Translations under genes and position numbers: made by a program
Shown: piece by piece, positions 7,910-47,639 of the stretch
Numbering within the stretch: the first letter of the stretch is position 1
Layout of the letters: each line of letters starts with the position of its first letter
Origin: Rhodocyclales bacterium
GTDB lineage: Bacteria > Pseudomonadota > Gammaproteobacteria > Burkholderiales > Rhodocyclaceae
DNA: 64,000 nucleotides
Assembly (NCBI GenBank): GCA_016215645.1
Contig: JACRIX010000084.1
Span: 62,001-126,000, forward strand
Reading direction: 5' to 3'
The notes under the pieces: generated by a model
Told to the model about the DNA's origin: nothing
Seen by the model: the letters and a program-made list of their open reading frames with translations, nothing else
Databases searched by the model: none

Positions 7910-7931
7910 TCTTTCGTTCTCCAGGTTAAAT

Positions 7932-14036: not shown

Positions 14037-14046
14037 CCGCCGTCTC

Positions 14047-29527: not shown

Positions 29528-29549
29528 TGTGGCGCCACCCGAAGCCAGC

Positions 29550-30782
29550 TCAAGAGTCGGCGCTGACGACACGGCGATTTGCGGCTCCGTCAGCGCTCAG
29601 CATGGCCTCAACGTCTTCCAGCACGGCGTCAACGGTGATCGCCTGCAGGCATCGATTGTCCTCGCACGCGCAGCGCCGCTGATCCGCTGCGCTGATGCAG
29701 GGCGAACATGCCAGGCCGGCGTACAAAACCCGCGCCGGACCAAGCGGACGATACAGGCGCGGAGTTTCGGGTCCGAACAACACCAGCGTCGGCGTCAGGG
29801 TCAGGCTCGCAATATGGGCCGGTCCGGAATCATTGCTCACCAGGGTTCGGCTGCGCGCGAACAGGGCGGGCAGTTCATGGACCGTCAGCATCCCGGCAAG
29901 ACTGGCGCAACGCGGCGTGGCAAGCTCGTGCGCCAGCGAATCGACCACCCGGGCTTCGACGGACGAGCCGATGAATCCGACACAAACATCGGGATGGCGG
30001 GCGATGAGTTGCCGCGCGAGTTCGACATAGCGCCGCATCGGCCAGCGCCGCTGCGGCAACAGGTCGCCTGCATTGGGATTCAGCAGCACCAGGCGGGCGC
30101 CGGCGAGTGCCTGCGGCAAGCGCTGCGCCAGTACCGCCGTCACGCGCTCCGCCGCTGCCGTGGAGACCGGGCTCGCCATGCGCGCACGCCAGGACAGTTC
30201 CGCATCGGCGGAGCATGCCGTTTCGCCGGGTAGCAAGGCTGCCGCCAGCGCCAGGCAGTTCTCGCTCATGTGCCGGTCGCTGCGGTAGGCCACGGGAAGG
30301 TTGAACAGGCGGCCGCGGTAGGCGTGCGCGTGCGTATACCCAGCGCGCAAACGCGCCCCGGCAAGCAAGCCGAGCAAGGCCGAGAATCGCGAACAGGGCT
30401 CCAAATCAAGCGTCGCGTCAAACCGTTGCCGCCACGCCCAGGCAAGAAAGCGCAGGAAATCGCGGGCAAACAAAAACGGCGTGTCGGTGCGCCAGAGGAA
30501 TGCCCTCTCGGCGGGCACCACGCCGGAGAGGCCAATGCAATCGGCATTGCGCGAAAAGCTGACGAAGTAGGGTGTCAGTCCGCGTTCGCGCAGCCAGTAC
30601 ATTGCCGGCGCCGCCAGAACCAGGCTGCCCATCTCGGCCAGCTGTATGCAGAGCACCCGTCGCGGGCGCGTCTGGCTGGCGCCACGCACCCGACTGAACC
30701 CGGCACCGGTGCACAAGGAAAGCAGGAAGCACAGCGGCACCCCAAGCCAGCGGTCCAGCCAGCGCATGGTTTCGGTGCTCAC
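29550..30782 (-). CDS. Glycosyltransferase family 9 (heptosyltransferase-like)
   Basis: 410 aa from GTG 30782 (ATG 30767 also possible). The GT9 fold shows RRVLCIQLAEMGSLVLAAPA at about residue 41, ARLVLLNPNAGD at about 230, and the donor-binding LVSNDSGPAHIASLT at about 312. GT9 enzymes add heptose or related sugars to lipopolysaccharide. The last residues (NRRVVSADS) and stop codon are supplied by a copy of the dispersed repeat, so the native C-terminus was probably replaced or extended. A cysteine-rich segment (CSPCISAADQRRCACEDNRC) near the C-terminus is unusual and could bind metal. Confidence 0.88.
   Translation of the reverse strand: MSTETMRWLDRWLGVPLCFLLSLCTGAGFSRVRGASQTRPRRVLCIQLAEMGSLVLAAPAMYWLRERGLTPYFVSFSRNADCIGLSGVVPAERAFLWRTDTPFLFARDFLRFLAWAWRQRFDATLDLEPCSRFSALLGLLAGARLRAGYTHAHAYRGRLFNLPVAYRSDRHMSENCLALAAALLPGETACSADAELSWRARMASPVSTAAAERVTAVLAQRLPQALAGARLVLLNPNAGDLLPQRRWPMRRYVELARQLIARHPDVCVGFIGSSVEARVVDSLAHELATPRCASLAGMLTVHELPALFARSRTLVSNDSGPAHIASLTLTPTLVLFGPETPRLYRPLGPARVLYAGLACSPCISAADQRRCACEDNRCLQAITVDAVLEDVEAMLSADGAANRRVVSADS
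29552..29580 (+). repeat. Dispersed repeat, copy 4 (end of glycosyltransferase gene)
   Basis: Reads AAGAGTCGGCGCTG, then ACGAC, then ACGGCGATTT. On the minus strand it encodes the last residues and stop of the GT9 protein; it is nearly identical to copy 2. Confidence 0.85.
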
Positions 30783-30830
30783 GGGGCCGGGCCCACCTCG
30801 GAACGCTTCGGCACATCGATGCCACGGGGC

Positions 30831-30858
30831 GATCGCCGTGGCGCCAGCGCCGACTCTT
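30831..30858 (-). repeat. Dispersed repeat, copy 5 (divergent intergenic)
   Basis: The minus strand reads AAGAGTCGGCGCTG, then GCGCC, then ACGGCGATC. It sits between the divergent GT9 and GT87 genes and is inverted relative to copies 3 and 4, so copies 3 and 5 bracket the 24.2-30.8 kb operon as inverted repeats. Confidence 0.8.
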
Positions 30859-30920
30859 GCGCAGCGTGTCCGCCACTGCCGACCGCCGCGCCGGCACCGG
30901 CTGGGGTAGCATCGGGCGCC

Positions 30921-32153
30921 ATGGCAATTTCCAACACGATTTCACGGGCGGTTTCGCAGCGATGGATGCTGCTCGGTCTGGCTGTTTTCATTGGCTACCT
31001 GATTGTCATTGCCACTCTGTATGCCGACGGCAGGAGATCCGCCGAACGGGGTGAATCACCGATGCTCACCGACTTCACCACGCTGTATGCCGCCTCGATC
31101 CTGCTGCGGCAACAGCCTGCCGCCGACCTTTACCGTCCCAGGGAAATGTACCAGGCCAGCCTGCTCGGGGCGCAGGCGGCCTATGGCGGAAATCTTAGCG
31201 AAAACCAGGCCAGGGCGATAGGCATGCATCCCTGGATGTATCCGCCGACCTTCATCCTCGCGGCGCTGCCGCTGGCTTACCTGCCCTACTTCATGGCCCT
31301 GTTCCTGTGGTTACTATTGACCGCCGTCCCCTACCTTGTCGCCATGCGCGGGATTCTGCGCGACCAACGTGTCTGGTTGGTCGCCCTGGGTGCGCCGCCG
31401 GTGTTCTACAACCTGATTTACGGACAGACCGGTTTCCTCGTCGCCGGCCTGATCGCTCTCGGGCTGCTCTGGCTGCGGCCGCGGCCTGTACTCGCCGGCA
31501 TCTGCATCGGCCTGGCCAGCGTCAAGCCGCATTTCGGTGTGCTGATACCGATTGCCCTGATCTGCGGGGCGCACTGGAAGGCCTTCTTCGCAGCCACCGC
31601 GACGGTACTTGCTGCCGCCCTCCTCAGCGGCCTCCTGCTTGGCGCTGACCCCTGGTATGCCTTTGTCGGCACGCTGTTCGCGAACCTGCGCGGCTTCGAG
31701 CAGGGCATTTACAAGTGGTGGATCATGCCCTCGGTGATGGGCGCCCTGCATCAGGCCGGGCTGGACCTGGCCTGGGCTTCGCGCGGCCAGATGCTGGCCA
31801 CGGTACTGGCGCTCGCCGCCGTATCCTGGTCCTGGTGGCAAAGCCCCGGGCGGCCCGACCTGCCCGGCCTCGAAGCGGCCGTCCTGTGTTCCGCGACGTT
31901 GCTGGCCGTGCCCATGGTCTACCTCTACGACATGATGCTGCTGGTGCCAGCCATCGCCTGGCTGTGGAGCGATATGCGCCAGCGTGGTTACCACGTGGCC
32001 GAGTTGCTGCTGCTCGCCGGTGGCAGCGCCGGCTTGCTCGGCGCGATCAAGCTCGGGGCCGGCGGCCCGATCTATGGCGCGCTGCTGAGTGCAAGCCTGC
32101 TCGGTCTTGCACTGAGGCGCATTGCACGGGTAAGACGCATCGATCCCTGTTGA
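30921..32153 (+). CDS. GT87-type polyprenyl-phosphate glycosyltransferase (DUF2029)
   Basis: 410 aa from ATG 30921. A polytopic membrane protein of about 10 helices. The periplasmic first loop has the acidic LTDFTTLYAAS segment typical of GT87 enzymes (catalytic Asp) and the later GMHPWMYPPTFI, GQTGFLVAGL and ASVKPHFG motifs of the family. Such enzymes transfer sugars from lipid-linked donors on the outer face of the inner membrane. It is transcribed away from the GT9 operon and converges on the 11-heme cytochrome gene, leaving only 6 bp between their ends. Confidence 0.85.
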   Translation: MAISNTISRAVSQRWMLLGLAVFIGYLIVIATLYADGRRSAERGESPMLTDFTTLYAASILLRQQPAADLYRPREMYQASLLGAQAAYGGNLSENQARAIGMHPWMYPPTFILAALPLAYLPYFMALFLWLLLTAVPYLVAMRGILRDQRVWLVALGAPPVFYNLIYGQTGFLVAGLIALGLLWLRPRPVLAGICIGLASVKPHFGVLIPIALICGAHWKAFFAATATVLAAALLSGLLLGADPWYAFVGTLFANLRGFEQGIYKWWIMPSVMGALHQAGLDLAWASRGQMLATVLALAAVSWSWWQSPGRPDLPGLEAAVLCSATLLAVPMVYLYDMMLLVPAIAWLWSDMRQRGYHVAELLLLAGGSAGLLGAIKLGAGGPIYGALLSASLLGLALRRIARVRRIDPC

Positions 32154-32159: not shown

Positions 32160-34832
32160 TTACGGCAATCCGCTGTTGCAAACATCGGTAATCATCCAGT
32201 CCTTGCCGTTGGTGGTAGCGTTGGTTGTGACATTCGTGTACGGCCCGGGATAGTCGCCGCTCATGCCGTTGATCCGGCTGCCGGCCGCCTTGTTGGCCGA
32301 GCCGCAATCGCCCAGCGACCAACTCCCACTGGTGGCAAAGGTACGGATTTTCAGCTTCGCTTCAAGGTAGTAGGGTGGATTCGTGTAATGGTGGCCCATG
32401 CCACTGAGGTTGACCTCCTTGCTGTCGGTAGCCGCCAAACCGGCAACTTCGCCACCGACGTCGTTGAGATTTACCAGCAGCGAGCGATTTTTCCAGCCAT
32501 GCGGCACGGCGATATGGCACCAGGTGCACTGGATCTCGCCGACCTTGGTCTTGTGGTAGGCATGGAGATTCCCCTTGCCACCGCCGCTGAAGCCGCTGGA
32601 GCTGGTCGGGTTGTGGCAACGCAGGCACAAGGTCGTCGCCGCATCGGTACTATCATTGTTCCATGCGCCCTTGAGAATGAAGGCATTCCCCGACCCGTGC
32701 GGTCCCCATGGCGAGCCTTCGCCGGTGGCCTGGTTGGCACCGGCCGGAATCACGGTTCCTGACGCTGTTCCACTGCCATGGCAGTCGCTGCAATACATGG
32801 TCTGGGTGCCGACATCGCGGAAGGGGTGGTTGAATGCGCTGGCCGCCGTGATATTGCGTTTGGTCGCGGTACGCCCCGTCGCACGCATCACCGGATGCCA
32901 GGATCGATGGTTGCCGGCGTCATACCCGGCAGACCCGCCGTCGTTGCCGAGACTCAGGGGTTCATCGGCATGGGCGCTCGGCGCATGGAACTCCTTGGCC
33001 TGATCGGTGTACTGGGTCAGGCCGTTCTGTCCGATCGACGTGCCGCTGGAAGGCGGCGTGGTGCCGTAGGCGTAGGACGAATGGCATTTCAGGCAGATCT
33101 GGTATTCCCGAGTCACGTAAGCCTTGGTATCCGGAGCGGACGTGTTGGGCACGGAATCGGCCCCCGGGTCACCTCGGCGAACGGTAAAACCCGTCGCCCT
33201 GTTGTGGAAGGAGTTTCCCGTGTAACTCGGCTCGACTCCCCAGGTGCCGCGCAAAACGCCGGATGCCACGTTGGTATGGCCACCGGCGGTATCGACATGG
33301 TTGTGGGTGCCTTCGTTGTCGGGCGCCTGCGTGATGTCACCGGGGAAGGTGGTCTTGCCAAAGAACAGGCGAAACTTCACGACGCGGTGGGGGTTGTGGC
33401 AATCGGTACATTCGGCATGGCGATTGGCCAGCAGCGATACTCGCTCGACGAAATCGGCACCGCATTTGTTTGCCGTACCGCTGCAATCCGATCCCGTGGT
33501 TCCGGCACCGCCGGCGTATCCGTCATTGAAGCTGCCGCCGATGTCATGCACCTCCGTGCCGGTGATCGGCATTTTGTAGGTCAGTTGAAAATCATCGCGG
33601 ATGTTGGGAACCTTGGTGGTCGGCGCAATGATCGAACTGGCACCGTCGCGATGGCATTGATAGCAGGTTTCCTCGAGCGTGGAACTGGTGCCGTCGCCGC
33701 CGCTGCGGGTCAGGCGCCGGGCGCCTTGCACGGTATGGGTGTCGTGGCAGTTCAGGCAGGAAACCTTCCATACCGGCATGCCACGCGGAAACTCGCGCGT
33801 GTCGGCGGCGGCATTGATGTAGGTCTGGGTCGCCACCGCGCTGTTGGCATGCGCCGAGTACGCCCATGACTTGCTGTTGCCTTGCAGGCCTTTGTCATGA
33901 CAGGCCAGGCAGATGATGTCGTTGCCGTCGCTGTAGGTATCGGTCGGCTGCGCCATCTGGAAGCGCGGACGACGCAGGAACTTGATATTGCGCTCCTTCG
34001 TGATATCCGCGGCGTCGCCGTCGTTCGGCGCCAGGGTGCTTTCCTTGATATGCGGATCATGGCAGGTCGTGCATTGGACCTGCCCCGTGCCACCTCCCGC
34101 GCCGAGGGTATTCTCCAGTGGCAATACCGGGCGCGTCGAGCTCGAACCGTACAGGCCGGTACCGGCGGAGCTGCTGCCAATGCCGCTGCCCTGACCGGTG
34201 GCGCGCGGCCCCACCAGCGGATGCGAACTGTTGATGGTCATCGATCCGCCCATGAGCCGTTGCTGGCCATCCGGCACGCGCAACTCACCGTCGCGCGTGG
34301 CGAGCGTACTGTCGTAGGTGATCGAAATCGGATGGTCGTTGGACAAATCGCTACCCAGGCGACGGGTGTAGCCGCTGGTGGCGCCCGCTCCGGCCGGCAT
34401 CACGGTCGTCGTCGCGCCCGATACCGAAATCGCGCTGCCGAGCCCTGACCCCGGTGCATTGACGACATTGCCGAGGGCGATGGTGCCATCGTGGCAGGAA
34501 AGGCAGAGCTTCGAACTGCCCAGCGGTTGCCCGGTCCAGCCGGATTGAGCGCTCTTCGCGTCGAGTGATTCAGATGAATACGGGGTGTAGGTCGCCGAGG
34601 AACTGGCGCGGTTCCAGAGTGGCGATACGGTGGCGGTATTGGCGCCGTGCGGGGTGTGGCAAAACACGCAAATCTGGGTTTCGCTATCCGCTTTCGTATT
34701 GCCCACGGCCGAAGACGTCGACAGGTTGTGCTTCGTGTCCTTGATTTTGGACTGTCGCGCCGCCTCCGCCAAGGGATTGAGCAAGGCAAGCAGGACTGCC
34801 AGCATGGCCAGGGTTCGCCAGCCGTTACTCAT
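32160..34832 (-). CDS. 11-heme c-type cytochrome
   Basis: 890 aa from ATG 34832, overlapping the NHL gene by 8 nt. A signal peptide (residues 1-24, ending LAEAA) is followed by eleven CXXCH motifs: CVFCH, CLSCH, CTTCH, CLACH, CLNCH, CYQCH, CTDCH, CLKCH, CSDCH, CLRCH and CTWCH. The first four, with KHNLS, CHTPHG, PLWN and CHDPH around them, form a tetraheme module that also occurs alone at 43817-44686 and 46159-46920. Linkers are rich in Gly, Ser and Thr, as in secreted multiheme proteins. No lipobox is seen, so it is either periplasmic or secreted. It is the last gene of the porin-cytochrome operon and likely the outermost electron carrier. Confidence 0.93.
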   Translation of the reverse strand: MSNGWRTLAMLAVLLALLNPLAEAARQSKIKDTKHNLSTSSAVGNTKADSETQICVFCHTPHGANTATVSPLWNRASSSATYTPYSSESLDAKSAQSGWTGQPLGSSKLCLSCHDGTIALGNVVNAPGSGLGSAISVSGATTTVMPAGAGATSGYTRRLGSDLSNDHPISITYDSTLATRDGELRVPDGQQRLMGGSMTINSSHPLVGPRATGQGSGIGSSSAGTGLYGSSSTRPVLPLENTLGAGGGTGQVQCTTCHDPHIKESTLAPNDGDAADITKERNIKFLRRPRFQMAQPTDTYSDGNDIICLACHDKGLQGNSKSWAYSAHANSAVATQTYINAAADTREFPRGMPVWKVSCLNCHDTHTVQGARRLTRSGGDGTSSTLEETCYQCHRDGASSIIAPTTKVPNIRDDFQLTYKMPITGTEVHDIGGSFNDGYAGGAGTTGSDCSGTANKCGADFVERVSLLANRHAECTDCHNPHRVVKFRLFFGKTTFPGDITQAPDNEGTHNHVDTAGGHTNVASGVLRGTWGVEPSYTGNSFHNRATGFTVRRGDPGADSVPNTSAPDTKAYVTREYQICLKCHSSYAYGTTPPSSGTSIGQNGLTQYTDQAKEFHAPSAHADEPLSLGNDGGSAGYDAGNHRSWHPVMRATGRTATKRNITAASAFNHPFRDVGTQTMYCSDCHGSGTASGTVIPAGANQATGEGSPWGPHGSGNAFILKGAWNNDSTDAATTLCLRCHNPTSSSGFSGGGKGNLHAYHKTKVGEIQCTWCHIAVPHGWKNRSLLVNLNDVGGEVAGLAATDSKEVNLSGMGHHYTNPPYYLEAKLKIRTFATSGSWSLGDCGSANKAAGSRINGMSGDYPGPYTNVTTNATTNGKDWMITDVCNSGLP

Positions 34833-35916
34833 TCTCGGAGCCTCCGCCGAGAAACTGGAATACCGAGACGCGGCTGTTCAGGGTATCGGCAACAAACACT
34901 CGATTGCGCCTATCAACCCATACCGCGGAAGGCAGGTGAAACTGCCCCGGCTCGCTTCCGACTCCGCCAATCGGCATCAAATACTCTCCGCGGCGGTTAT
35001 AGACCAACAGGTGGTCGTAATAGGATTCCACGACATAGATGTTTCCTTCGCCATCCACGGCAACACCTTTGGGACGCACCATGTTGCCAACGTACATCCC
35101 CATCTTGCCAATCGTAGCAAGATGCACGCCCGTCGCGGTCGAGAGTACCTGCACACGAGCATTCATGGTATCGGCGACATAGAGTTTTCCGCCGTGAATG
35201 CTGGCATAGGTGGGATAGTTGAATTCCCCCGGACCCTCGCCTCGCTCACCCCAGACGTCAAGCAAATTCCCCTGGGTATCGAACAGCTTGATCTGGTGCT
35301 CGCCGGTATCGACGACAAAGATGCGCCGGGTTTCCGGCTCGTAGGCGATCCCGGTCGGTCGCGTCAAATGCCCCTTGCCGATGGGGCCGATCGAGTCACC
35401 CTTCTGGTTCAGCCTGGCCACCAGGGCGAGTTCGCTGTCCGTTACCAGCACGACGCCATCCTGACCAATCGCGATACCGACCGGACTGACGAATTTCCTG
35501 GCGCCGTCCGCCTGCTGCCAGGTTTCCAGGGTAACGGCTTTCTCATCGAAAACGAACACCGACGCATTGCCCCGATCCGCCACCAGAATGCGCCCGGCAT
35601 CGTCTACCGCGCCGGACTGCGGTCGATAGATTTCACGTGGCGGTTCCTCGCCGCGAATGATCTCAAGCAGGCGCGCCAGGAAATCGAGCGGATTGCTGCG
35701 CTTTGACTCCGGGTCGGAAATATTGCGGTCGCCATAGAGATGCCCGACGTATACATAGCGCGGCACATCGCCGTCACCTTCCGGCGGAAACATCAGGCGT
35801 TTGGTATGGGTGGCATCGACATCCAGCAGGAACGTCGGCTTTTCACTCACGCCGGCGCAGCCCGACAGTCCCACGAGCAGGACGAGAAGAAAAAGAACTG
35901 GGCTGGCTGGCTTCAC
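34825..35916 (-). CDS. NHL-repeat beta-propeller lipoprotein
   Basis: 363 aa from GTG 35916, which overlaps the stop of the upstream gene (GTGA). Lipoprotein signal FLLVLLVGLSGC with lipobox LSGC. Residues about 95-355 form a six-bladed NHL propeller (SGAVDDAGRILVADRGNASV, PVGIAIGQDGVVLVTDSE, PTGIAYEPETRRIFVVDTGE, FNYPTYASIHGGKLYVADTM, PKGVAVDGEGNIYVVESYYD, PSAVWVDRRNRVFVADTLNS). It has no heme motif. It resembles the NHL lipoprotein at 44981-46117, so each multiheme gene has a propeller partner. A docking or folding role is inferred. Confidence 0.88.
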   Translation of the reverse strand: MKPASPVLFLLVLLVGLSGCAGVSEKPTFLLDVDATHTKRLMFPPEGDGDVPRYVYVGHLYGDRNISDPESKRSNPLDFLARLLEIIRGEEPPREIYRPQSGAVDDAGRILVADRGNASVFVFDEKAVTLETWQQADGARKFVSPVGIAIGQDGVVLVTDSELALVARLNQKGDSIGPIGKGHLTRPTGIAYEPETRRIFVVDTGEHQIKLFDTQGNLLDVWGERGEGPGEFNYPTYASIHGGKLYVADTMNARVQVLSTATGVHLATIGKMGMYVGNMVRPKGVAVDGEGNIYVVESYYDHLLVYNRRGEYLMPIGGVGSEPGQFHLPSAVWVDRRNRVFVADTLNSRVSVFQFLGGGSENE

Positions 35917-36869
35917 GATGGGTGGCGTCGGATCCGGAAAACGGCAACCGACCGGCTTGCGCCATCGGCAACATACATGATGCCATTGGAGACGAAAATA
36001 TGTTGCGGGGAAACGAGATTCAAGTCCGCCGGCGCGACAGTTTCCAGCCCACCCTCGAATACCCTGGATATGCTGCGGTCAAAGCCGTCAAGCACATAGA
36101 CTTCACCACGCTCGGCCACCAGTCCCATCGGCAAACGCAGCTTCCCGCTGGCAAGTCGTCGGACAAAGCCGCCGTTGCGCCATTCCCTGACGCATCCGCA
36201 TTCTGCATCCGCGACCCACAATGCAGTGCCATCGATCGCTATCGGACCGGGCCTGTCCAGTTCGAGGTAGGACAGGGCCACGCGGCCGCCGGGCTCGATC
36301 CGATCGACCATCTTGTGCACCGAGTCGACGGCAAAAACGCGTCCGCTTGCGGCTTCCATGGCAAAGGCAAGGTAACGGCTGGACGGCAACCGCGGATGCA
36401 TTACCAGCACGGGGGCACCGTGCATCGAATGGCGACGAATCTCGCCACCCATGGCATCCATGATGTAGATGCTGCCATCCGTCCCGGCATCCAGCTTGCT
36501 GCCGGCCGCGATGCGTACACCAGGAACCGCGGCCATCAAGCCGCTGCCGCGGTCATAGCGAAACAGCTTCCCATGGCCGGCATCGGCAACGAACAGGGCG
36601 CCCTGACTCGCCACCGCCGCCACCGGAAACATGAATGACAGGTATATTTCGTTACCGCCCGGCAAGGGCTGGCCGGTCGAATGAACCCTGTCGGTCAGGA
36701 TTGCGCCGGAAAGCCCGAACATGGGCTCAAGCCAGGTATGGGCATTGCCGCGTGGCGACGCGACGCCGCCGCAGCCGGCCGCCGCCACGCTCCCGGCCAG
36801 TGCCGCAGCGCGCGCCAGAAAGCGCCTGCGGCTACCAGCGCCCCGGGCCACCGGTCTCATGACCACCAT
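35913..36869 (-). CDS. NHL-like beta-propeller protein, Tat-type lipoprotein
   Basis: 318 aa from ATG 36869 (or ATG 36860). The signal combines a twin-arginine-like basic stretch (SRRRFLARAAALAGS) with a lipobox (AAAGCGG), suggesting export in folded form and lipid anchoring. The rest is propeller-like (AVASQGALFVADAGHGKL, TDGSIYIMDAMGGEI, SGRVFAVDSVHKMVDRI, DGTALWVADAECGC, ERGEVYVLDGFDRSI, SNGIMYVADGASRSV). It is divergent in sequence from the neighbouring NHL protein. It overlaps the preceding cytochrome gene by 38 nt. Confidence 0.8.
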   Translation of the reverse strand: MVVMRPVARGAGSRRRFLARAAALAGSVAAAGCGGVASPRGNAHTWLEPMFGLSGAILTDRVHSTGQPLPGGNEIYLSFMFPVAAVASQGALFVADAGHGKLFRYDRGSGLMAAVPGVRIAAGSKLDAGTDGSIYIMDAMGGEIRRHSMHGAPVLVMHPRLPSSRYLAFAMEAASGRVFAVDSVHKMVDRIEPGGRVALSYLELDRPGPIAIDGTALWVADAECGCVREWRNGGFVRRLASGKLRLPMGLVAERGEVYVLDGFDRSISRVFEGGLETVAPADLNLVSPQHIFVSNGIMYVADGASRSVAVFRIRRHPS

Positions 36870-37209
36870 AGATCCCCGTCGGCAAGCCGCGTTTGCCGGA
36901 ATGACACAGGTCGCAGCGATCGGGCGCCCAGGCGATGTCTCCGTTGTGGCAGGCTCCGCAAAAGCGTCCGTCGACGATATCCGACATCTTGAAATCGTTG
37001 CTCCCTACGCGCATTTTGAAACCAAGCTCGGCATGACAGACCTTGCAGCGAAAGCGGATCCGGTGAAACCAGTGCGGAAATATCACCGGCCTCACGCCTT
37101 CCTTTTCGGCGCGCCGGTTGAGCACCACATCGGCGTACTCGGCAGACACGGGCGGCATGACTCCCAGCAGCAGAACCGCGAACGCCAGACCAAGGCGCCA
37201 TGTCGACAT
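36832..37209 (-). CDS. Small triheme c7-type cytochrome (type A, second copy)
   Basis: 125 aa from ATG 37209, just past the stop of the preceding gene. A signal peptide (WRLGLAFAVLLLGVMPPVSA) leads to PVIFPHWFHRIRFRCKVCH, CGACH and CDLCH: three hemes within about 55 residues plus His ligands in FPHWFHRIRF. It is a close paralogue of the gene at 39667-40077 (same order and spacing: CKVCH, CGACH, CNLCH). Probably a small periplasmic electron shuttle. Confidence 0.9.
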   Translation of the reverse strand: MSTWRLGLAFAVLLLGVMPPVSAEYADVVLNRRAEKEGVRPVIFPHWFHRIRFRCKVCHAELGFKMRVGSNDFKMSDIVDGRFCGACHNGDIAWAPDRCDLCHSGKRGLPTGIYGGHETGGPGRW

Positions 37210-37214
37210 GAACT

Positions 37215-37799
37215 TCACTTGGGAGGCACCGCGCCGGAGGGAATGGCAATCGGCAAGGACGGCCTGGGAGCCTGTCCCGGCCTGGCAACACTGTGGCACC
37301 GGAAACACTCGGTCAGCGGGAACGACACGGCCCCATGACACACGCCACACTGCTCGCCCTCAAGGATCTTGAGCATGGAAAACTTCGTCGCGCCCGCCTC
37401 CGCCTTGAACAGCTGATCATGACAATTGACGCAGTCCAGCCACAGCGTGTGCTGGCGATGCGGGAAGCGCACGATCGGCATCCCCCCTTTGAGGTTCAGC
37501 AAGACGTCGGAGTCGTACACCCGAATCTTCGTGTCGGGACGAATATTGGCGCGCGGGTTGATTTCCCCCTTTTCCAGGGATTGAACCCAGCGCACCATGT
37601 TGCCAGCGGTATCCGGGGTCAGCTTGGAAAGCGCATCGGCCGGCTGCTGCAATTGCTGAATGGCGGGACTGCGCGGATCGTGAATGCCGTCCTTGTTCAA
37701 GGACTCCCAATCGCTACCGCTGACACCAGCGCTTGCCAACAAGGCGAGGACGACCAGCGCCCTGCGCCAAAAATCAGCCTGGGATGTAGATTCCCGCAT
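37215..37799 (-). CDS. Triheme c7-type cytochrome (type B)
   Basis: 194 aa from ATG 37799, overlapping the end of the helical-protein gene by 26 nt. A signal peptide (RRALVVLALLASAGVSG) is followed by a heme-free stretch (about 25-115) and three motifs, CVNCH, CGVCH and CFRCH, in the C-terminal third, preceded by VRFPHRQHTLWLDC. The N-terminal KDGIHDPRSPA segment recurs in the fused cytochrome at 38684-39655 (EDGIHDPTNDG), so these two and the protein at 8591 share a domain. Confidence 0.9.
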   Translation of the reverse strand: MRESTSQADFWRRALVVLALLASAGVSGSDWESLNKDGIHDPRSPAIQQLQQPADALSKLTPDTAGNMVRWVQSLEKGEINPRANIRPDTKIRVYDSDVLLNLKGGMPIVRFPHRQHTLWLDCVNCHDQLFKAEAGATKFSMLKILEGEQCGVCHGAVSFPLTECFRCHSVARPGQAPRPSLPIAIPSGAVPPK

Positions 37800-38670
37800 T
37801 CCGGATTGCGCGCACCAGCTCCGTTGTTGCTTCCTCGAGAAGCTTGACTGCTTCGTCATAGGCCTTGCGTGACGCCGCCTCATCGGCCTTCACGCGCAGG
37901 GCCTGCCCCTTGGAAAGATACGACTGGATCATGTCGCCGCTGGCCTTTTTGTCATCGACAAGAACTTTGATCAGCATCTGGTGCGTATTGTTCCGGTCGA
38001 TTTCGTAATGGTATTCCTCTTCCTTGCTGGCAAAGTTCAATGACCGCACCAACGTGTCGCCGCTGCGCAGCGTGGTCAGGCCGGCCTTTGCCACCAGATA
38101 GCCGCGATCGATTTCGGCCTTGGCTTCGGCAAATTTCCGCGCCTTGGCCAGATCCGATGATGCGGCGATGGATTTTTCAATCTGGGACACCGATTCAGCC
38201 AGTCCCTTCGCGGATTTCTCCCCGGATACGCGCTTGTAGGCACCGAGCAGGGCCTGCACGCTTTCCAGACGCAACAGGTAGTCGTTTTCCAGCTTTTTCG
38301 CCGTAACTTCCTCGGGTGCCGCGAAGCGCACGGCATCGAAGAACACCGCCCTCGCCTCGGCCAACAGTGCAGAAGCCTTGTCCAGATTGTCCTGATCCAA
38401 CGCCTGCTTTGCCGCGCGATGAAGTTCGCGTGCCTTGTCCCGGCGTTGCTGGGCCTCCGGCGCCTTGCTCGACTCGATCTGGCGGGCAGCGGACGAACTT
38501 TCAATCAGTTTTCCGACGGATTCGATATTGAAGGTCAGTTGCGCCTTATCGACTTTATTGCCGGCCAACCTGGACGCGGCGCTGTCAGGCGAGTTCGCCG
38601 CCGGCACCGCCTGTGCCGCAACCGCAGTACACGCCAGCAGAATGAGGAGGGAGAAAATTGGCTTCTTCAT
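37774..38670 (-). CDS. Heme-free helical periplasmic protein
   Basis: 298 aa from ATG 38670. A signal peptide (KKPIFSLLILLACTAVAAQA) is followed by an almost wholly alpha-helical, charged sequence rich in Ala, Lys and Glu with coiled-coil character (ARELHRAAKQALDQDNLDKA, KARKFAEAKAEIDRGYLVAK). It has no CXXCH, no catalytic motif and no Cys after the signal. The family is not recognised. Its place in the middle of five cytochrome genes suggests a scaffold, spacer or chaperone for the cytochromes; this is inference. Confidence 0.75.
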   Translation of the reverse strand: MKKPIFSLLILLACTAVAAQAVPAANSPDSAASRLAGNKVDKAQLTFNIESVGKLIESSSAARQIESSKAPEAQQRRDKARELHRAAKQALDQDNLDKASALLAEARAVFFDAVRFAAPEEVTAKKLENDYLLRLESVQALLGAYKRVSGEKSAKGLAESVSQIEKSIAASSDLAKARKFAEAKAEIDRGYLVAKAGLTTLRSGDTLVRSLNFASKEEEYHYEIDRNNTHQMLIKVLVDDKKASGDMIQSYLSKGQALRVKADEAASRKAYDEAVKLLEEATTELVRAIRNAGIYIPG

Positions 38671-38683
38671 GACAGTACCCCGG

Positions 38684-39655
38684 TTACTTTGCCGCCGCTG
38701 CCGCAGCCTGGGCAGGACGGACTTCCTTTTTCTTCGAATGGCAAAGACGGCATTCCGACACCGGGAACGCCACCTTGCCGTGACACACACCGCATTTCTC
38801 GCCCAGCAGAATCGCCGCCATGCTAATTGCATTGGCGCCCTTCTGCGGGGTAAAAATTGCCGGGTGACAGTTCGAGCAATCGAGCCACTCCGTGTGCTGC
38901 TTGTGCGGATAGACCACATCGGGCATGGACCCCTTGACCTCACGAACGATGTTCAGGTCGATCACCACGGGTGTTGCCGCAGGATCATTGCGATCCCAGC
39001 GCGGATTGATCTTGTTCTCCTCGATCGCCTTGACCCAGTTGATCCGATTTCCGGCGAGACTCTTCGGCAAGGGGCCGTAGGCGGCAAGCGGAGCCATCAA
39101 TGCCAGAGTACCGTCGTTGGTCGGATCATGAATGCCGTCTTCAGCCGGAGGCGGATTGCGCTTGCCGATCGGCTTGAGCAGGCGATTGAAGGAGTTGATG
39201 TCGGCTGCGGACACGCCCGAGGTATTGGCCGACGGGTTGGTGACGGGAGCCGCAACCGAAGCTGCCGGCGGCGCGGCGGGCGCAGCCGCCGCTGCTGCCG
39301 CGACAGGCGTCGCCGTAGCCGCCGGCTTGGCTGGTGCAGCCGCCGTCTTGACCGAGGCCAGCATGTAATCGACCGCCGCCTTGACGTCCGCATCCGATGC
39401 TGCGAGATTTCCGCCCTTCTGCGGCATTCCCTTGGGGGTACCCTTAAGGGCGCTGGCATACAGGCGAGCCGTACCGGCAGCGATGCGAGGCTGCCAGTCT
39501 GCGGCGTTGCCATAGCGTGGTGCGCCGGCAATTCCAGCTGCATGACAGACACCACATGTCTTGGTGTAGAGATCCTTGCCCGCATCGGCGGCCGAAACGA
39601 CGCCGCAAAAGGAGAGCAGAGACAGGGACGCGAGAAGGATTCGTTTGATTTTCAT
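38684..39655 (-). CDS. Tetraheme cytochrome: monoheme c5-like domain fused to c7 triheme domain
   Basis: 323 aa from ATG 39655. A signal peptide (RILLASLSLLSFCGVVSA) is followed by a class I cytochrome with CGVCHAAG and axial-Met segment KGMPQKGG (about 25-95), an Ala/Pro/Thr linker (about 100-150), then a triheme domain with CSNCH, CGVCH and CRLCH (about 255-310), introduced by HKQHTEWLDC. The first domain is closely similar to the free monoheme protein at 47088-47462. The second matches the type B triheme protein at 37215-37799. Domain fusion could give a flexible tether between two carriers. Confidence 0.92.
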   Translation of the reverse strand: MKIKRILLASLSLLSFCGVVSAADAGKDLYTKTCGVCHAAGIAGAPRYGNAADWQPRIAAGTARLYASALKGTPKGMPQKGGNLAASDADVKAAVDYMLASVKTAAAPAKPAATATPVAAAAAAAPAAPPAASVAAPVTNPSANTSGVSAADINSFNRLLKPIGKRNPPPAEDGIHDPTNDGTLALMAPLAAYGPLPKSLAGNRINWVKAIEENKINPRWDRNDPAATPVVIDLNIVREVKGSMPDVVYPHKQHTEWLDCSNCHPAIFTPQKGANAISMAAILLGEKCGVCHGKVAFPVSECRLCHSKKKEVRPAQAAAAAAK

Positions 39656-39666
39656 GATCTCGCTCC

Positions 39667-40077
39667 TTATTTCTTCTGCAAGGTCGCCGGAGCAAGCTTC
39701 TGGACCGTGCTTTCATGAACCTGCGTCTGGGTCCCCGGTTTGGCGGAGTGACAAAGATTGCAGTTTTCAACAGACCACGCCAATTCACCGTTGTGACAGG
39801 CACCGCAGTACTGGCCATCAATGATCTTGACCATGTTGATCTCGTTGCCGCCGGCCTTGAACTTGAATCCCAGGTCGGCATGGCAGACCTTGCACCGGAA
39901 CCGGACCCGGTGGAACCAGTGCGGGAATATCGCCGGTCGCATTCCGGCGGCATCCGAATAGTTGTTGATGACGATATCGCCGTATTCAGCGCGTGCGTCA
40001 TCAATATCCATTGCCAGCGTCGCTGCAACCGCCAAGAGAACCAGCAGCACGCGCTGCCAAAGGCATTTTCGAAACAT
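39667..40077 (-). CDS. Small triheme c7-type cytochrome (type A, first copy)
   Basis: 136 aa from ATG 40077. A signal peptide (LWQRVLLVLLAVAATLAM) leads to AIFPHWFHRVRFRCKVCH, CGACH and CNLCH. It is near-identical in layout to the protein at 36832-37209. It begins 56 bp after the stop of the barrel gene, and a purine-rich AAGGAAGACC ribosome-binding site precedes the ATG. Likely a periplasmic carrier feeding the outer-membrane barrel. Confidence 0.92.
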   Translation of the reverse strand: MFRKCLWQRVLLVLLAVAATLAMDIDDARAEYGDIVINNYSDAAGMRPAIFPHWFHRVRFRCKVCHADLGFKFKAGGNEINMVKIIDGQYCGACHNGELAWSVENCNLCHSAKPGTQTQVHESTVQKLAPATLQKK

Positions 40078-40133
40078 GGTCTTCCTTTATACCTAAACAA
40101 CCAAGCGCGCATTCTATCCGCGCCGAAATATGC

Positions 40134-42509
40134 TTACCAGCGGCCATCGAAGAAGCCGTCGAACTCCCGGGTGACCGAACCAAAAATAGAAGCACTTTTC
40201 TTGCCAGCTTGATCAATCCACGAATTGCTCAGGCGAAATATCAAGCGGCCCAGGCGATAATCGACAAGCTGCTGTATCGATGTACTTCCTTTGTCATTGA
40301 TCTGTAATGCGCCGACTCCGGCCACGTTCTGATTCGAAAAGCTCTGGAAGCGCATGAGGGTGCCGCTGTAATTCAGGTTCCTGATCGAAAAAGGGCTGTG
40401 ATGTGTGTAGCCCAAGGAAAAACTTCCCGTGCTTTGCGGGGTGTTGGTATTGACCTCCAGGCCATTCAGCACCTGATTGGTACTGGTGCTGATAAGGCTT
40501 TGGCTCCAGGTCAGATTGGCGTTGATCGTTACCGCAGCACGTGAGCTGATCTGGTAAATGCCCCCCCCCATCAAGTTCGCGGTCTTGAACTGGTTTTTGC
40601 CGCCGACGCCGCTGGATGTGTTGAAGCTGACATTCGTGCTCAGGTTCGCCGTGAGTTGCTCACCGTAGCTGGCCCGCCACGCCGCGCCGACTGAATTGCT
40701 CAGGCTTGTGGTCGCCCCCAGTTGCGCAGTTGTATGCGAGACGTTCTGGCTCGCGCTGAGATTGACAGCACCGTAATCGCCAAAAATGATCGCCCGGGAA
40801 AGATTGTGGCTCGCATTGACGCCGCTGCCGACTTCACTTGTGCCATTGCTGGAGGAACTATGGGTCAGTCCGCCACCGGTTCCCCATCCGTAGGTAAACC
40901 CCGAGAACTGAAGGGGGTCACCCGAATAGGAAACGCTGGCGGCTTGCACGCTCGAAATGCTGCGCACCCCGGAACTGTCGACCGAACTGATCGAGGCATT
41001 TCCGGTCGCCGAGAGATTGTTGTTGAATCGATACATCGTGGAAAGAAAGCCATTGAGACTGTTCAGGTCGCTGGGCACCTGGTTATTGAGTGTCTGTGTT
41101 CTGGAAAAATTACCTCCCCCAGTCAGTGTCAGCGGCAAATCCTCAAAGGGCCGCCAGGTAAAGCCCGTGGTGCCGAGCAAAACGGTAGAGTTATTTTGGG
41201 TCGGGGTATTCCCCTGAAAGAAATTCACATCGCTTTTGGCGAATGTCAGCATGTTGTTGATGCTGAGATCCTCATGGACATTCCAGCCATGGTTCAGATT
41301 GGCGCTGAACTGTTTGGCATCCTGAGTGGATGGATTCGACGCCGACGAGGAGCCATTGAAGTTCGCAGACAGATTGTGGTTGCCCTCCAGAAAGTGGCCG
41401 AACTCAAACTCGTTGCTTGTCGTATAGCTCCCGCCGAAGGACGAAACCACGCTGTTGTTGGTCGCCGTCGAGATGCCGGTCGTGACATTGTTGCGATTGA
41501 AATTGAAGGCATAGTTGTCACGCCCGTCTTCAGTGCGATATTGCTGCCGCATGCCCACCGCCGTCGATGTGGATGGACTCGCGGTCTCGGCTGAACGGCT
41601 CATTGAGGTACTGCGACTCAAGTTGCCGCTGAAGGGGAAACGGCTCAACGGAAAGACATTGACGCTGCCGCCAAAACTCATTGCCGAACTATCGCTTTTG
41701 ACCGCGGTACCGGTGGATGGGGTAAAGGTGGTGCCCGTGGAACTTGCGCCCAGCATCCCGGACCACTGGGCAATATAGGGCGCCATGATGAAACTGTTGG
41801 CCTGCAAATTCAGATTGTTGAAAATGGTCAAGCTCTTGCCACTCTCGCCAGCCTGAAAGTAGTTCCCTGTGGTGCTGGTGTTTCCTGCCCAACGGATCGG
41901 TGCCAATTGCCAGGTCTCGGCGCTGAGATCCGGCAGTTCCGATGAAGCGGCGCCACCCTTCATCACAACCGACTTGTTGTCTCTGCCAGAGGGAGTTCGT
42001 GTCGTCGTCCCGACGGGAGCCGGATCGTAGGGAACCGGTGCTGGCTCCTCGGGCTGGTTTCCAAGTCTTCCGTCAACCACGACGGGGTCGATCGCGTCCA
42101 CTACCGGACTGCCGTTGGCCAGGTAGTGGCGTCGATCCCGCACAGGACTCACATCATCTCGAGCCAGCTCAGGAACACTCGGTTCTGAAGCCACAACAAA
42201 TGAAGCCCGCGCCGGCAGGGCCCGAATCGCTGTTGCGCGCCTTGGCTTCAATTCATGATCAAGGCGCAATGCTGATTCCGGGATATCCCCGGGCGCCCCG
42301 TCCACTTCTGCAACGACCCCACGGTTTCGAGATTCGCCGATCATCATCGACGGACGCAAGGATACGTCGACCAGAATCAATGCATCAAAGGAATCCTCGC
42401 GCAAGCCATCTTCCCTGGCCTGTGCGGCGTGAATACAAATTGAGCCGAGGGCTCCAAGCAGCGGGCTCCAATAACTGTTGCGCCGTGGATTTTGGCTACC
42501 ATTCCTCAC
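40134..42509 (-). CDS. Large outer-membrane beta-barrel, candidate porin of an electron conduit
   Basis: 791 aa from GTG 42509 (an ATG at 42502 is out of frame). A signal peptide (residues about 12-31, ending HAAQA) is followed by a polar, Pro-rich periplasmic stretch (about 32-195). Roughly 580 residues then have alternating hydrophobic/polar short segments rich in Asn, Ser, Thr and Gly, typical of a beta-barrel with 20 or more strands. The protein ends in an aromatic residue (EFDGFFDGRW), as outer-membrane barrels do for BAM recognition. No CXXCH and no TonB box are visible. It does not resemble MtrB by eye (no N-terminal CXXC). Encoded directly after a parvulin foldase and before cytochrome genes. 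Confidence 0.85.
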   Translation of the reverse strand: MRNGSQNPRRNSYWSPLLGALGSICIHAAQAREDGLREDSFDALILVDVSLRPSMMIGESRNRGVVAEVDGAPGDIPESALRLDHELKPRRATAIRALPARASFVVASEPSVPELARDDVSPVRDRRHYLANGSPVVDAIDPVVVDGRLGNQPEEPAPVPYDPAPVGTTTRTPSGRDNKSVVMKGGAASSELPDLSAETWQLAPIRWAGNTSTTGNYFQAGESGKSLTIFNNLNLQANSFIMAPYIAQWSGMLGASSTGTTFTPSTGTAVKSDSSAMSFGGSVNVFPLSRFPFSGNLSRSTSMSRSAETASPSTSTAVGMRQQYRTEDGRDNYAFNFNRNNVTTGISTATNNSVVSSFGGSYTTSNEFEFGHFLEGNHNLSANFNGSSSASNPSTQDAKQFSANLNHGWNVHEDLSINNMLTFAKSDVNFFQGNTPTQNNSTVLLGTTGFTWRPFEDLPLTLTGGGNFSRTQTLNNQVPSDLNSLNGFLSTMYRFNNNLSATGNASISSVDSSGVRSISSVQAASVSYSGDPLQFSGFTYGWGTGGGLTHSSSSNGTSEVGSGVNASHNLSRAIIFGDYGAVNLSASQNVSHTTAQLGATTSLSNSVGAAWRASYGEQLTANLSTNVSFNTSSGVGGKNQFKTANLMGGGIYQISSRAAVTINANLTWSQSLISTSTNQVLNGLEVNTNTPQSTGSFSLGYTHHSPFSIRNLNYSGTLMRFQSFSNQNVAGVGALQINDKGSTSIQQLVDYRLGRLIFRLSNSWIDQAGKKSASIFGSVTREFDGFFDGRW

Positions 42510-42556
42510 GTTGCGTGAAAGTGCATAGCGAAAAGCTCGGGCGTTCCGGCTCCAAG

Positions 42557-43612
42557 CTATTTTCCTGCGCTTCGATCGGCCCCCGCATTGGTCGGTTCAT
42601 CGAAAACAACAATCTTTGCCTCGGCACGAAGCTTGGCAAGAAGTCCCGTCCAAGCCGCCTCCTGACGCTCTCTCAAAAGCAATTCTCCGGCCCGCTTGGC
42701 AACATTTTCGAAGGGCTGGAGTTTCGCGGACACGCGCTCATCGAGACGGAACACACCAATCCCCTGAAGCATTTCGATGGGTTCGGCCACCTCCCCAAAC
42801 TTGAACTGGTCGATTTTGGCCTGCAGGTTGTCCGGAAGCATGCCAAGATGCAAATATCCCATGTCGCCACCGTTATCGGCACTGGGGTCCTTCGAAAACA
42901 ATCGGGCTTGCTCCGCGAAGCTGGCACCGGCGCGAATACGGCGCACGATGGCTTCCGCTTCCCTGAGCGCGGCATCCCAGGCGGCACGCGGAGACGAGGG
43001 GTCCACCGCGAGCAAAATCGAGTACAGGTGGAGTTTCTCCGGCTCGGTGAATAGTTCCGGCTTCGATGTGTAGAACGCCTTCGTCTCTTCGGCAGTCGGG
43101 GTTGGAACATCACGAACCGCCTGCTCCAGCCGGGCTTGCCGGCTTTGTTGTCCAAGCTGATCTTTCAAGCCGGGAAGCAAGGTTTCGCGATTTTTCTGCC
43201 AGGCAGGGCTGCCCGCATAGCGCTGCTCATAGACCTGCACTCGGCGCGCCACATCCTCCACGTCAGGCGTGATCCCGCGACGATCCATTTCTTCCTGATA
43301 CAGAATCCGGTTCACCAGCTGGTCGGTGACTTCCTTGCGCGCTTGCTGAAGTTGATCCTCGGGTACTTGCCCGTGATAGAACTTCTGTCGCAAAAAAGTG
43401 CCGTAGGCGGCGTGAAAATCATTTTGGGTAATGGGCTTGCCATTGACCGTCGCAAACAAGGGCTGGGTTGCAGGGACCTGGGATGCACCAGCAGCAGGCT
43501 TGTCCGTCGCCGTAGCGCCACTGGTTTGTTGCGCCCATGTCAATGACGAGAGGACCACGCTTGCCAACGCCATGGAACCGAGGAAGGCTCGCGCCCGATA
43601 TTGAATAGTCAT
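42557..43612 (-). CDS. Periplasmic parvulin-type peptidyl-prolyl isomerase (SurA/PpiC-like)
   Basis: 351 aa from ATG 43612. A signal peptide (FLGSMALASVVLSSLTWAQ) is followed by a SurA-like N-terminal domain (VNGKPITQNDFHAAYGTFLR) and a parvulin rotamase domain at about 190-300 (LHLYSILLAVDPSS, FAEQARLFSKDPSADNGGDMG, FKFGEVAEPIEMLQGIGVFRL). It should assist folding of outer-membrane or secreted proteins, probably the barrel encoded 47 bp downstream and the multihemes. It is the first gene of the ten-gene operon, as a terminator lies upstream of it. Confidence 0.9.
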   Translation of the reverse strand: MTIQYRARAFLGSMALASVVLSSLTWAQQTSGATATDKPAAGASQVPATQPLFATVNGKPITQNDFHAAYGTFLRQKFYHGQVPEDQLQQARKEVTDQLVNRILYQEEMDRRGITPDVEDVARRVQVYEQRYAGSPAWQKNRETLLPGLKDQLGQQSRQARLEQAVRDVPTPTAEETKAFYTSKPELFTEPEKLHLYSILLAVDPSSPRAAWDAALREAEAIVRRIRAGASFAEQARLFSKDPSADNGGDMGYLHLGMLPDNLQAKIDQFKFGEVAEPIEMLQGIGVFRLDERVSAKLQPFENVAKRAGELLLRERQEAAWTGLLAKLRAEAKIVVFDEPTNAGADRSAGK

Positions 43613-43721
43613 GTCTTGCCTTTCCGGTCAACTCGTGGCGCGACCAAGGGGTTCAGCCCACTCGAATCAGGGACTCCGCTATCGCCAAAGTCCCAAAAAC
43701 AGCTCAGGAAATATACAAGAA

Positions 43722-43752
43722 AAAAGCCCCGTGGTTTCCCGTGGGGCTTTTC
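43722..43752 (-). terminator. Terminator between tetraheme gene and foldase operon
   Basis: GCCCC and GGGGC with a further GG/CC inner stem, flanked by AAAAAA on one side and TTTT on the other, form a hairpin with a T-run in the minus direction. It lies about 65 bp after the stop of the tetraheme cytochrome gene, separating it from the ppiC-led operon. Confidence 0.75.
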
Positions 43753-43816
43753 TCGATTGCGGGAACGTCTCGATCCGCTGACAAGGCGCCCGGCATTCAG
43801 CCAAGCGCCCTGGATC

Positions 43817-44686: not shown

Positions 44687-44745
44687 GATGCCCTCCGTTT
44701 GTGATTGGTGCTGCAAGAATGAAATTCCTGAGACACCTAGCTTTG

Positions 44746-44761
44746 AGCACCAATCGTGCCA
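44746..44761 (-). promoter_or_regulatory. Sigma-54 (-24/-12) promoter for tetraheme cytochrome gene
   Basis: The minus strand reads TGGCACG-ATTG-GTGCT against the consensus TGGCACG-N4-TTGCW, a single mismatch, with GG and GC exactly 10 bases apart. Predicted transcript start is about 44735, giving a leader of about 50 nt before ATG 44686. The window encodes a sigma-54-activating regulator at 12669-14036. Confidence 0.75.
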
Positions 44762-44776
44762 TTCAACAAACACGTG

Positions 44777-44792
44777 CGTGACTTAGGTCACA
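44777..44792. promoter_or_regulatory. CRP-like palindrome upstream of sigma-54 promoter
   Basis: CGTGA-CTTAGG-TCACA matches the CRP-type consensus TGTGA-N6-TCACA at 9 of 10 positions and contains the perfect inverted repeat GTGAC/GTCAC. It lies about 16 bp upstream of the -24 element. An AT-rich stretch (44802-44826), possibly an IHF-type bend site, follows upstream. Confidence 0.5.
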
Positions 44793-44980
44793 CCGGCAGA
44801 AATAATAATTTATTTCATTTAAAAACATACAGATAAACAAATACGTTCGGGGCGCCATCTGACCACGGACGGCCAGTGGTGCCGCCGTGCCCCAGTGACT
44901 CGAATTCAACCCTTTCTCGATTCCCAAACTCGGGAACAGCCTTTCCCAGTTTCAGAAAATGCAGCCAGCCCATTCAGCCG

Positions 44981-46117
44981 CTACGGTTTGGCTTTCGCTG
45001 CCGGGGCCGCCGGCTTCCGGCCGAGGTAACCCTCGCTCTCCTTCATGGCAACGGGCCTGAAAATATCAATACGCGCGAACCATTGATCAACGAAATAGAT
45101 TCGTCCGTCTTCGTCGACCGCCACACCGGAAGGCAACATGTAACCCGCCGGCTGATCCTGCTCTGAGCGCTCACCGATGAACATCAGCAATTCGCCATCT
45201 GGATTAAAAATCTGGATATTGCCAAACGCGGTATCGGCAACGTAAACATTGCCCTGGCGATCCGTCGCGATCTCTTTGGGACGCGCAAAATTCCCAAGTT
45301 GTTTGCCGACTGCGCCAAAGCTCTTGAGATATTTGCCGGCCCTGTCAAAAATTTGCACCCGGAAATTGCCGCCGTCAACCACATAGATTCGACCATCCTT
45401 GCCCAAAGCCACATCGCGCGGCAGATTGAACTCGCCATCGCCGGAACCACGCTTGCCGATGTCCATGATGTGGGCGCCGGTCTTGCCGTTGAAAACACGT
45501 ACCACGTGCTTCTCCGAACTCACTCCACCAATATCGACAACGAATACCCGCTCGCCCACCTCATCGACCGTCACGCTGGAGAGTCTTTCAAAAAACTTGG
45601 GACCACCGAGTCGCCGCAAATACTTCCCGGAGTTGTCATATACCAGGATGGTTTTCTGGGTTGCGTCGGCGACATAGAGATTGCCTTGTCCGTCGATATC
45701 GATGCCGAGCGGCTTCGCCAGTTTGCCCTCCCCATCGTCGTCACCGACGGTGTAGTAGGCACGACCGGGAATATCGAATACCCGGACCTTGCGGCCGACC
45801 GAATCGGATACAAACAACTTGCCTCGATGGACGGCAATGGAGTACGGCTTGGAAAGCGCCTCCCCGGAGACCCCTCCACTGCCGGTCAAGGCACGCCTCA
45901 AGGCAGACTCATCCTCCTCCGGTACAACGTCCGCACTATTGCGAATCGCCCGCTCGAACACAAACCTCGGATCGTCTGGCGGCGCCGGAAACACCAGTGT
46001 CCGGTTGGATCGGCCGACTTGATCGAGATCGCGCTTGGCAACAGTCACGCAGCCGCCCAGACCGACGACGCATACCAGCAGAAAGGCGCCTGCCGCGTAC
46101 TGGAATTTTTGCTTCAT
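44981..46117 (-). CDS. NHL-repeat beta-propeller lipoprotein
   Basis: 378 aa from ATG 46117, preceded by GAGGGGGG. Lipoprotein signal AFLLVCVVGLGGC (lipobox GLGGC). The NHL propeller occupies about 85-365 (PYSIAVHRGKLFVSDSVGRK, PLGIDIDGQGNLYVADATQK, VTVDEVGERVFVVDIGG, PRDVALGKDGRIYVVDGGNF, PKEIATDRQGNVYVADTAFG, PSGVAVDEDGRIYFVDQWFA). The C-terminus is Ala/Pro/Lys-rich. It is 41 bp downstream of a tetraheme gene and probably cotranscribed. About 290 bp upstream of the next gene is non-coding and holds the promoter elements described above. Confidence 0.88.
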   Translation of the reverse strand: MKQKFQYAAGAFLLVCVVGLGGCVTVAKRDLDQVGRSNRTLVFPAPPDDPRFVFERAIRNSADVVPEEDESALRRALTGSGGVSGEALSKPYSIAVHRGKLFVSDSVGRKVRVFDIPGRAYYTVGDDDGEGKLAKPLGIDIDGQGNLYVADATQKTILVYDNSGKYLRRLGGPKFFERLSSVTVDEVGERVFVVDIGGVSSEKHVVRVFNGKTGAHIMDIGKRGSGDGEFNLPRDVALGKDGRIYVVDGGNFRVQIFDRAGKYLKSFGAVGKQLGNFARPKEIATDRQGNVYVADTAFGNIQIFNPDGELLMFIGERSEQDQPAGYMLPSGVAVDEDGRIYFVDQWFARIDIFRPVAMKESEGYLGRKPAAPAAKAKP

Positions 46118-47462: not shown

Positions 47463-47639
47463 TGCAGCGGTCTCAAAATTGCGCAAAGCCCCGACGGGAA
47501 ACTCCGTTCAGGCTTGATGCAATATTCAGACCAGCGCAACTTCGGGCTCGATACCTGCTTCCGCGACTGTGAAATCTCTCAAATTGGCTCTACCATGTCG
47601 GGCCAGTGCGAATGTACCTGCGGAGTTACTCAATAGGCC

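Follow-up and report, generated by a model that had tools for sequence, protein, structure and literature searches.

The founding paper on the undecaheme electron transfer (Uet) cluster is reportedly that of Eddie et al. (2022). Uet has been named in Tenderiales. The cluster name uetABCDEFGHIJ is printed in PMC12575090. In Gallionella, Uet comprises the undecaheme cytochrome UetJ, an extracellular tetraheme cytochrome UetA, the triheme cytochromes UetDEG, the peptidyl-prolyl isomerase UetB, the NHL proteins UetHI and the barrel UetC (PMC10734462); UetJ and a porin have been reported in Leptothrix (PMC13386937). In Candidatus Tenderia electrophaga, Tel_16515, 16520 and 16530 encode three highly expressed trihemes, Tel_16525 is annotated as TPR, and Tel_16545 encodes an undecaheme cytochrome (PMC5371394). 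We describe here a Uet cluster on the minus strand of a 64,000-nt stretch of DNA (the window; positions 62,001 to 126,000 of contig JACRIX010000084.1, our C62) from a Rhodocyclales bacterium whose assembly is 3.41 Mb long and 79.6% complete. We consider it rather likely, judging from sequence comparison, that this locus specifies a Uet-type electron conduit across the outer membrane, the outer part of which would most likely be a cytochrome nanowire.

The stretch 32160-43612 carries ten minus-strand genes with 24 CXXCH motifs in total (Table 1), as a sequence-only reading of the window had described; the small cytochromes have 3, 4, 3 and 3 CXXCH and the largest cytochrome 11. That reading had taken the cluster for a separate type of conduit; this was not borne out, because content and order match those printed for Uet and the locus is therefore no new separate type. 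A protein with 11 CXXCH represents the undecaheme UetJ, and UetA, UetB, UetC, the trihemes D, E and G and two NHL proteins (H and I) stand together in one cluster, a match that rests on published descriptions of gene content and order rather than on the Tenderia sequences themselves. By locus-tag number, the trihemes, the TPR gene and the undecaheme gene of Tenderia stand in the order seen in the window, and the set as published shares its order from tetraheme, foldase and barrel through c7 trihemes and two NHL proteins to the undecaheme; in both, the trihemes are placed around a heme-free protein, the gene of which is called TPR in Tenderia and encodes a helical protein here. Three features set the window apart from the Tenderia form as described: one more triheme (G2) between G and H, a class I heme fused to UetE as its fourth heme, and three conserved genes (X1-X3) upstream. 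Among 15 close loci, UetE has four hemes in 14 and is cut in the remaining one; many of the distant loci have a UetE with three. These variant features, together with a link to OmcE, are what we add to Uet. The ten genes of the earlier reading were thus all found, but its start at uetB leaves uetA and the three conserved genes X3, X2 and X1 outside; the conserved cluster reaches upstream to at least 47486.

Pfam and NCBIfam recognised the PpiC, NHL, c7 triheme and, in the 11-heme protein, doubled-CXXCH families, the NHL match being strong for UetI and weak for UetH, and gave nothing meaningful for the barrel protein or the helical protein. The several c7-type trihemes proposed earlier correspond to four cluster proteins that match TIGR04257 with 57-66 bits (cut-off 40). 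The whole assembly contains five such matches; the fifth lies in the window at 8591-9262 on the minus strand, approximately 28 kb from the trihemes of the cluster. UetD is closest by sequence to the triheme domains of 3ov0 (entry titled "Cytochrome c family protein"), which we take to be a GSU1996-type c7 multidomain cytochrome; unlike in that multidomain protein, the triheme units here are separate genes. As annotated, uetG overlaps the preceding gene, and its start has therefore probably been set too early, with the true start further in. For UetF, the predicted model was poor (mean predicted local distance difference test score, pLDDT, of 56) and no credible relative emerged when its profile was run against solved structures (best E 0.11), so a specific fold was dropped and only the description "helical" stands.

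A nanowire with an outer-membrane socket is suggested because UetA is related to the filament-forming cytochrome OmcE. When 177,635 distinct sequences of solved structures were searched, UetA matched 7tfs_A with an E-value of 1.6e-28 over residues 14-182 and 227-289 of its 289; 7tfs is the OmcE filament of Geobacter sulfurreducens (PMC12954529). The second good match was 9yuq_N (E 9.5e-21), and past these two only weak cytochrome c' matches were found. UetJ and X2 match 7tfs and 9yuq as UetA does, UetJ with E-values for 7tfs of 8.4e-25 as a single sequence (residues 14-186, the OmcE-like module) and 7e-34 as a profile. OmcE is homologous to UetA, to X2 and to the N-terminal part of UetJ, with heme motifs and histidines in the same order. 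Unlike OmcE, UetJ fuses this module to seven further hemes, and the OmcE-like gene is clustered here with a barrel and periplasmic carriers, a comparison made with the OmcE protein itself. In a FastTree phylogeny, the UetJ modules and the X2 sequences each formed one group with support of 1.0, and OmcE joined the UetJ side with support of 0.89.

In OmcE and OmcS filaments, a histidine ligand of a heme is supplied by the adjacent subunit (PMC9473688, PMC12203936), and in OmcE it is heme 2 that receives such a ligand (PMC12203936). Eight OmcE histidines, four of them in CXXCH motifs and four elsewhere, are kept in all 40 UetA sequences counted (one copy with 3 CXXCH, in L033, was left out), except for the TPH histidine, kept in 39, the sole exception being the second tandem copy in L103. 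All eight are kept in 35 of 35 UetJ sequences; the UetJ set and the distant UetA set had been pre-selected for 11 or 4 CXXCH. The TPH histidine is present in none of 12 X2 sequences, so that one heme of X2 may be ligated differently or have a vacant site, and a fifth histidine outside the CXXCH motifs of OmcE is kept in none. These observations bear on a Uet conduit without a filament, in which UetA would be a single surface cytochrome exchanging electrons with the mineral and UetJ the wire through the barrel. We regard such an arrangement as unlikely, though worth serious attention: the histidines kept in UetA form a set that should include the inter-subunit ligand and UetJ repeats the OmcE module, whereas the published wording "extracellular tetraheme cytochrome (UetA)" (PMC10734462) stands near to it. 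A divergent UetA-like protein with five CXXCH is encoded on another contig of the same genome (C68; 5942-7048 of locus L040, minus strand), outside the Uet locus and facing an NHL protein (7134-8315, plus strand).

No statement of a link between UetA and OmcE was found in the accessible Uet literature that we searched; the link may have been stated earlier, as the OmcE structure paper and the full text of Eddie et al. (2022) were outside this search. PMC10734462 treats Uet without OmcE, the word "filament" being absent and "nanowire" occurring in the reference list only; PMC13386937 has neither OmcE nor nanowire; and PMC12575090 names uet and has OmcE in one reference title only. Undecaheme Tenderiales cytochromes and OmcE are mentioned apart in PMC13264449, which states that nanowires were not investigated.

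The expression layout was examined by a terminator scan that allowed loops up to 14 nt (a limit of 8 misses the uetA terminator), with expectations from dinucleotide shuffles. In the window, uetA is followed by a GC-rich stem with a T run. The gap between uetA and uetB contains a strong terminator in 26 of 40 loci against 1.2 expected, and in 18 of 25 representatives (UetA less than 70% identical to each other) against 0.85 expected; the hairpins differ in sequence between loci. Elsewhere terminators were found in 1 of 34 B-C gaps, 1 of 33 C-D gaps and 0 of 26 D-E gaps. This pattern fits a subunit predicted to be made in excess over the conduit, and also a conduit without a filament, in that a terminator could simply serve to keep any surface protein in excess.

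The gene order, which the sequence-only reading had proposed to look for in other genomes, was indeed found there. A barrel homologue is present in 16 of 101 genomes (the own genome, 11 of 30 of the same genus, three from other genera of the family and one from the order), and all 14 genes from X1 to J occur in the same order in 8 of the 16 loci, with uetJ of one of the eight (L030) cut by a contig end. The UetF profile matched in 42 of 369 genomes of the class and 23 of 398 of the phylum, the own genome being included in each. Forty further loci were taken, one at a paralogue in the own genome and the other 39 at places where the UetF profile matched elsewhere; 21 of them contain A to G together with I and J, and several others are cut by contig ends; these nine core genes are together also in 8 of 17 nearby loci, one of which is a contig of the own genome without the cluster. 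UetJ has 11 CXXCH in 24 of the 25 further loci that have it, and is split 6+5 in L128. Because order and heme counts are conserved, the cluster is not a product of chance. G2 is common and is absent from L117, L119 and L120, of which L119 and L120 resemble the Tenderia form. Conservation among nearby loci is lowest for the barrel (22-58% identity), whereas UetD is among the most conserved proteins (74-90%).

This conservation also bears on a rival view, in which the cytochromes would store or bridge electrons within the periplasm and have nothing to do with the barrel. The D-E-F trio stands without UetC, UetA and UetJ in L107-L110 and L112 (stretches of up to 19.5 kb), and in L111 without UetC or UetJ near a 24-heme protein, so part of the cluster can stand alone and is perhaps a portable periplasmic module. 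We hold this view to be very improbable: in all eight fully collinear loci uetC is flanked by uetB and uetD, and the nine core genes keep together as given above.

The AlphaFold model of UetC has a mean pLDDT of 71.3. Residues 206-781 show about 28 long strands, counted by eye, in blocks mostly of pLDDT 75-95 that fall lower around residues 680 and 730; the first 195 residues have pLDDT below 50 and are probably unstructured. The structure prediction thus supports a barrel, but its relationship was not settled by Foldseek, which gave a mixture of TonB receptors and MtrB among low-scoring matches; MtrB (6r2q_B), at rank 7, had the best template modelling (TM) score (0.34/0.40) among the 50 matches listed. 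Because TonB receptors match beside MtrB, the fold comparison alone is not decisive, and UetC had no credible sequence relative among the solved structures (best E 2). That the barrel might be a TonB-dependent receptor lying by chance among cytochromes could draw on the many TonB receptors at similar Foldseek E-values; it is, in our judgement, scarcely credible. A Plug or receptor domain, which would have spoken for such a receptor in the earlier reading as well, was found in 0 of 14 barrel homologues at E 0.01; the initial 195 residues form no plug in the model, which leaves them unfolded with low confidence; the strands number about 28 in the model against 22 in TonB receptors; and MtrB had the best TM score as noted above. 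A cytochrome pore is a plausible role for UetC on this model.

The cluster shares with MtrCAB, MtoAB and PioAB a barrel and cytochromes across the outer membrane. It differs from them in that it lacks a decaheme gene of the MtrA type, as the earlier reading had noted, and in that its barrel is not of the MtrB_PioB family: MtrB_PioB (PF11854) had no match in the window barrel or its 13 aligned relatives, and TIGR03508 was matched only below the cut-off at this locus. An identity as MtrCAB or MtoAB was rejected on these grounds. PCC3 and PCC4 are likewise predicted porin-cytochrome sets of iron oxidisers. PCC3, with periplasmic cytochromes of 21-27 hemes, outer cytochromes of 10-35 hemes and an inner-membrane protein (PMC10734462), was ruled out, the largest cytochrome here having 11 hemes against 21-27; PCC4, with 4-, 5- and 10-heme cytochromes, does not fit the heme set of the cluster. 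Uet adds to a route of the MtrA-MtrB type rather than replacing it, because the same genome has two pairs of a decaheme and an MtrB-type gene (3026-6313 of locus L149 on C105; 8864-12247 of locus L150 on C19), and the only two proteins over the TIGR03508 cut-off are on these contigs. By eye, the two genes ahead of the C105 pair resemble a sensor and a response regulator.

If the locus is a conduit carrying a nanowire, UetB would help UetC to fold and UetC would form the outer-membrane pore. UetJ would sit in or at this pore, its OmcE-like module anchoring or capping a filament built outside from UetA subunits made in excess; X2, without one conserved histidine, may be the chain end. UetD, UetE, UetG and G2 would carry electrons across the periplasm, and UetF perhaps aligns the trihemes, a role suggested for the TPR gene in Tenderia (PMC5371394). 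Electrons would pass from an outside donor to the UetA filament or surface cytochrome, and through UetJ and the trihemes to the respiratory chain. Sequence cannot fix the direction; inward flow, from Fe(II) or another solid donor, is probable because a RuBisCO-family gene is present (RuBisCO_large, E 1.6e-122) and the Tenderia trihemes are highly expressed on a cathode (PMC5371394). We are somewhat less than half convinced of a wider proposal, that Uet is a self-contained nanowire machine consisting of the UetA subunit, UetJ as base or cap, X2 as possible chain end, the channel, the foldase, the carriers and, in some species, a sugar-modification cassette for the filament; a dedicated barrel would then hold cytochrome nanowires in place, and autotrophs would use them to take up electrons.

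Several points weigh against a conduit with a nanowire. Homology to OmcE is no proof of polymerisation, the wire role of OmcS/OmcE-type proteins is itself disputed (PMC11077965), and the filament, the localisation and the expression in this organism are predicted only. The assignment of the eight ligands is by conservation, in which the bridging histidine is not singled out, and OmcE 163-170 lies outside the comparison; the UetA group in the tree was recovered at a support of 0.14. Fourteen of the 40 A-B gaps are without a terminator under the scan rule, and terminators occur also in 5 of 19 X3-A gaps (0.9 expected). The UetC model has a predicted TM score of 0.50 and a low whole-chain TM score to MtrB, and UetC is 22-27% identical to its distant counterparts; the UetF profile also matches in many genomes outside this cluster. 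The gene matching RuBisCO may instead encode a RuBisCO-like protein, and the undecaheme and trihemes of Tenderia showed no significant change with electrode potential (PMC5371394).

A 2025 review describes membrane anchoring of nanowires, the points of electron entry and exit, and secretion as unresolved, with pilins, porin complexes and proteolysis as options for secretion (PMC12307469). If a Uet nanowire exists, this locus would be a compact candidate for anchoring, electron entry and exit, and secretion, and OmcE-type wires, known from Geobacter, would also belong to clusters for electron uptake in several classes of the phylum of the host.

Table 1. Features of the Uet locus and its surroundings in the window.
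Feature	Position	Strand	Remarks
Radical SAM, DegT aminotransferase, GT9 (-), GT87 (+, within 30270-32153)	26889..32153		Sugar-modification-type genes, uetJ side
UetJ, undecaheme cytochrome, 890 aa, 11 CXXCH	32160..34832	-	OmcE-like four-heme N-terminal module, then seven CXXCH
UetI, NHL propeller	34825..35916	-	Lipobox-like LSGC, read by eye
UetH, NHL-like propeller	35913..36869	-	Twin-arginine-like N-terminus, read by eye
G2 (name given here), extra c7 triheme cytochrome	36832..37203	-	
UetG, c7 triheme cytochrome	37215..37883	-	
UetF, heme-free helical protein, ~298 aa	37774..38670	-	
UetE, class I monoheme domain fused to c7 triheme domain, 4 CXXCH	38684..39655	-	
UetD, c7 triheme cytochrome	39667..40077	-	
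UetC, predicted outer-membrane barrel, 791 aa, heme-free	40134..42509	-	
UetB, SurA/PpiC-type foldase, 351 aa	42557..43612	-	
Intrinsic terminator right after uetA	43719..43754	-	12-pair stem, 12-nt loop, T run
UetA, tetraheme cytochrome, OmcE filament family, 289 aa	43817..44686	-	
Long gap ahead of uetA	44687..44980	-	Candidate promoter region of its own
X3, NHL propeller, conserved upstream of uetA	44981..46117	-	Lipobox-like LGGC, read by eye
X2, second OmcE-like tetraheme, without TPH histidine	46159..46920	-	
X1, monoheme class I cytochrome, conserved neighbour	47088..47486	-	
Divergent three-domain class I cytochrome, 3 CXXCH, conserved neighbour	47640..48719	+	

OmcE filaments are extensively glycosylated (PMC9473688), and the sugar-modification-type genes on the uetJ side could possibly modify the filament. 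All four occur in the 15-17 kb J-side flank of 4 of 8 relatives (L158, L159, L161 and L163), in two of them at approximately 4 to 9 kb from uetJ, and none of GT87, GT9, DegT and radical SAM was found in the J-side flanks of L160, L162, L164 and L165; these genes were therefore rejected as a fixed part of Uet. Beyond these eight relatives, all four genes are present in L038, and GT9 and GT87 in L031. The window also contains a CcmF cytochrome maturation gene and, on the minus strand, a PAS/GGDEF/EAL protein (3427-7410), a Reg_prop propeller (10561-11625) and a pair that looks two-component-like by eye (12669-15576); relatives of the propeller and of this pair are found on the uetJ side in L165.

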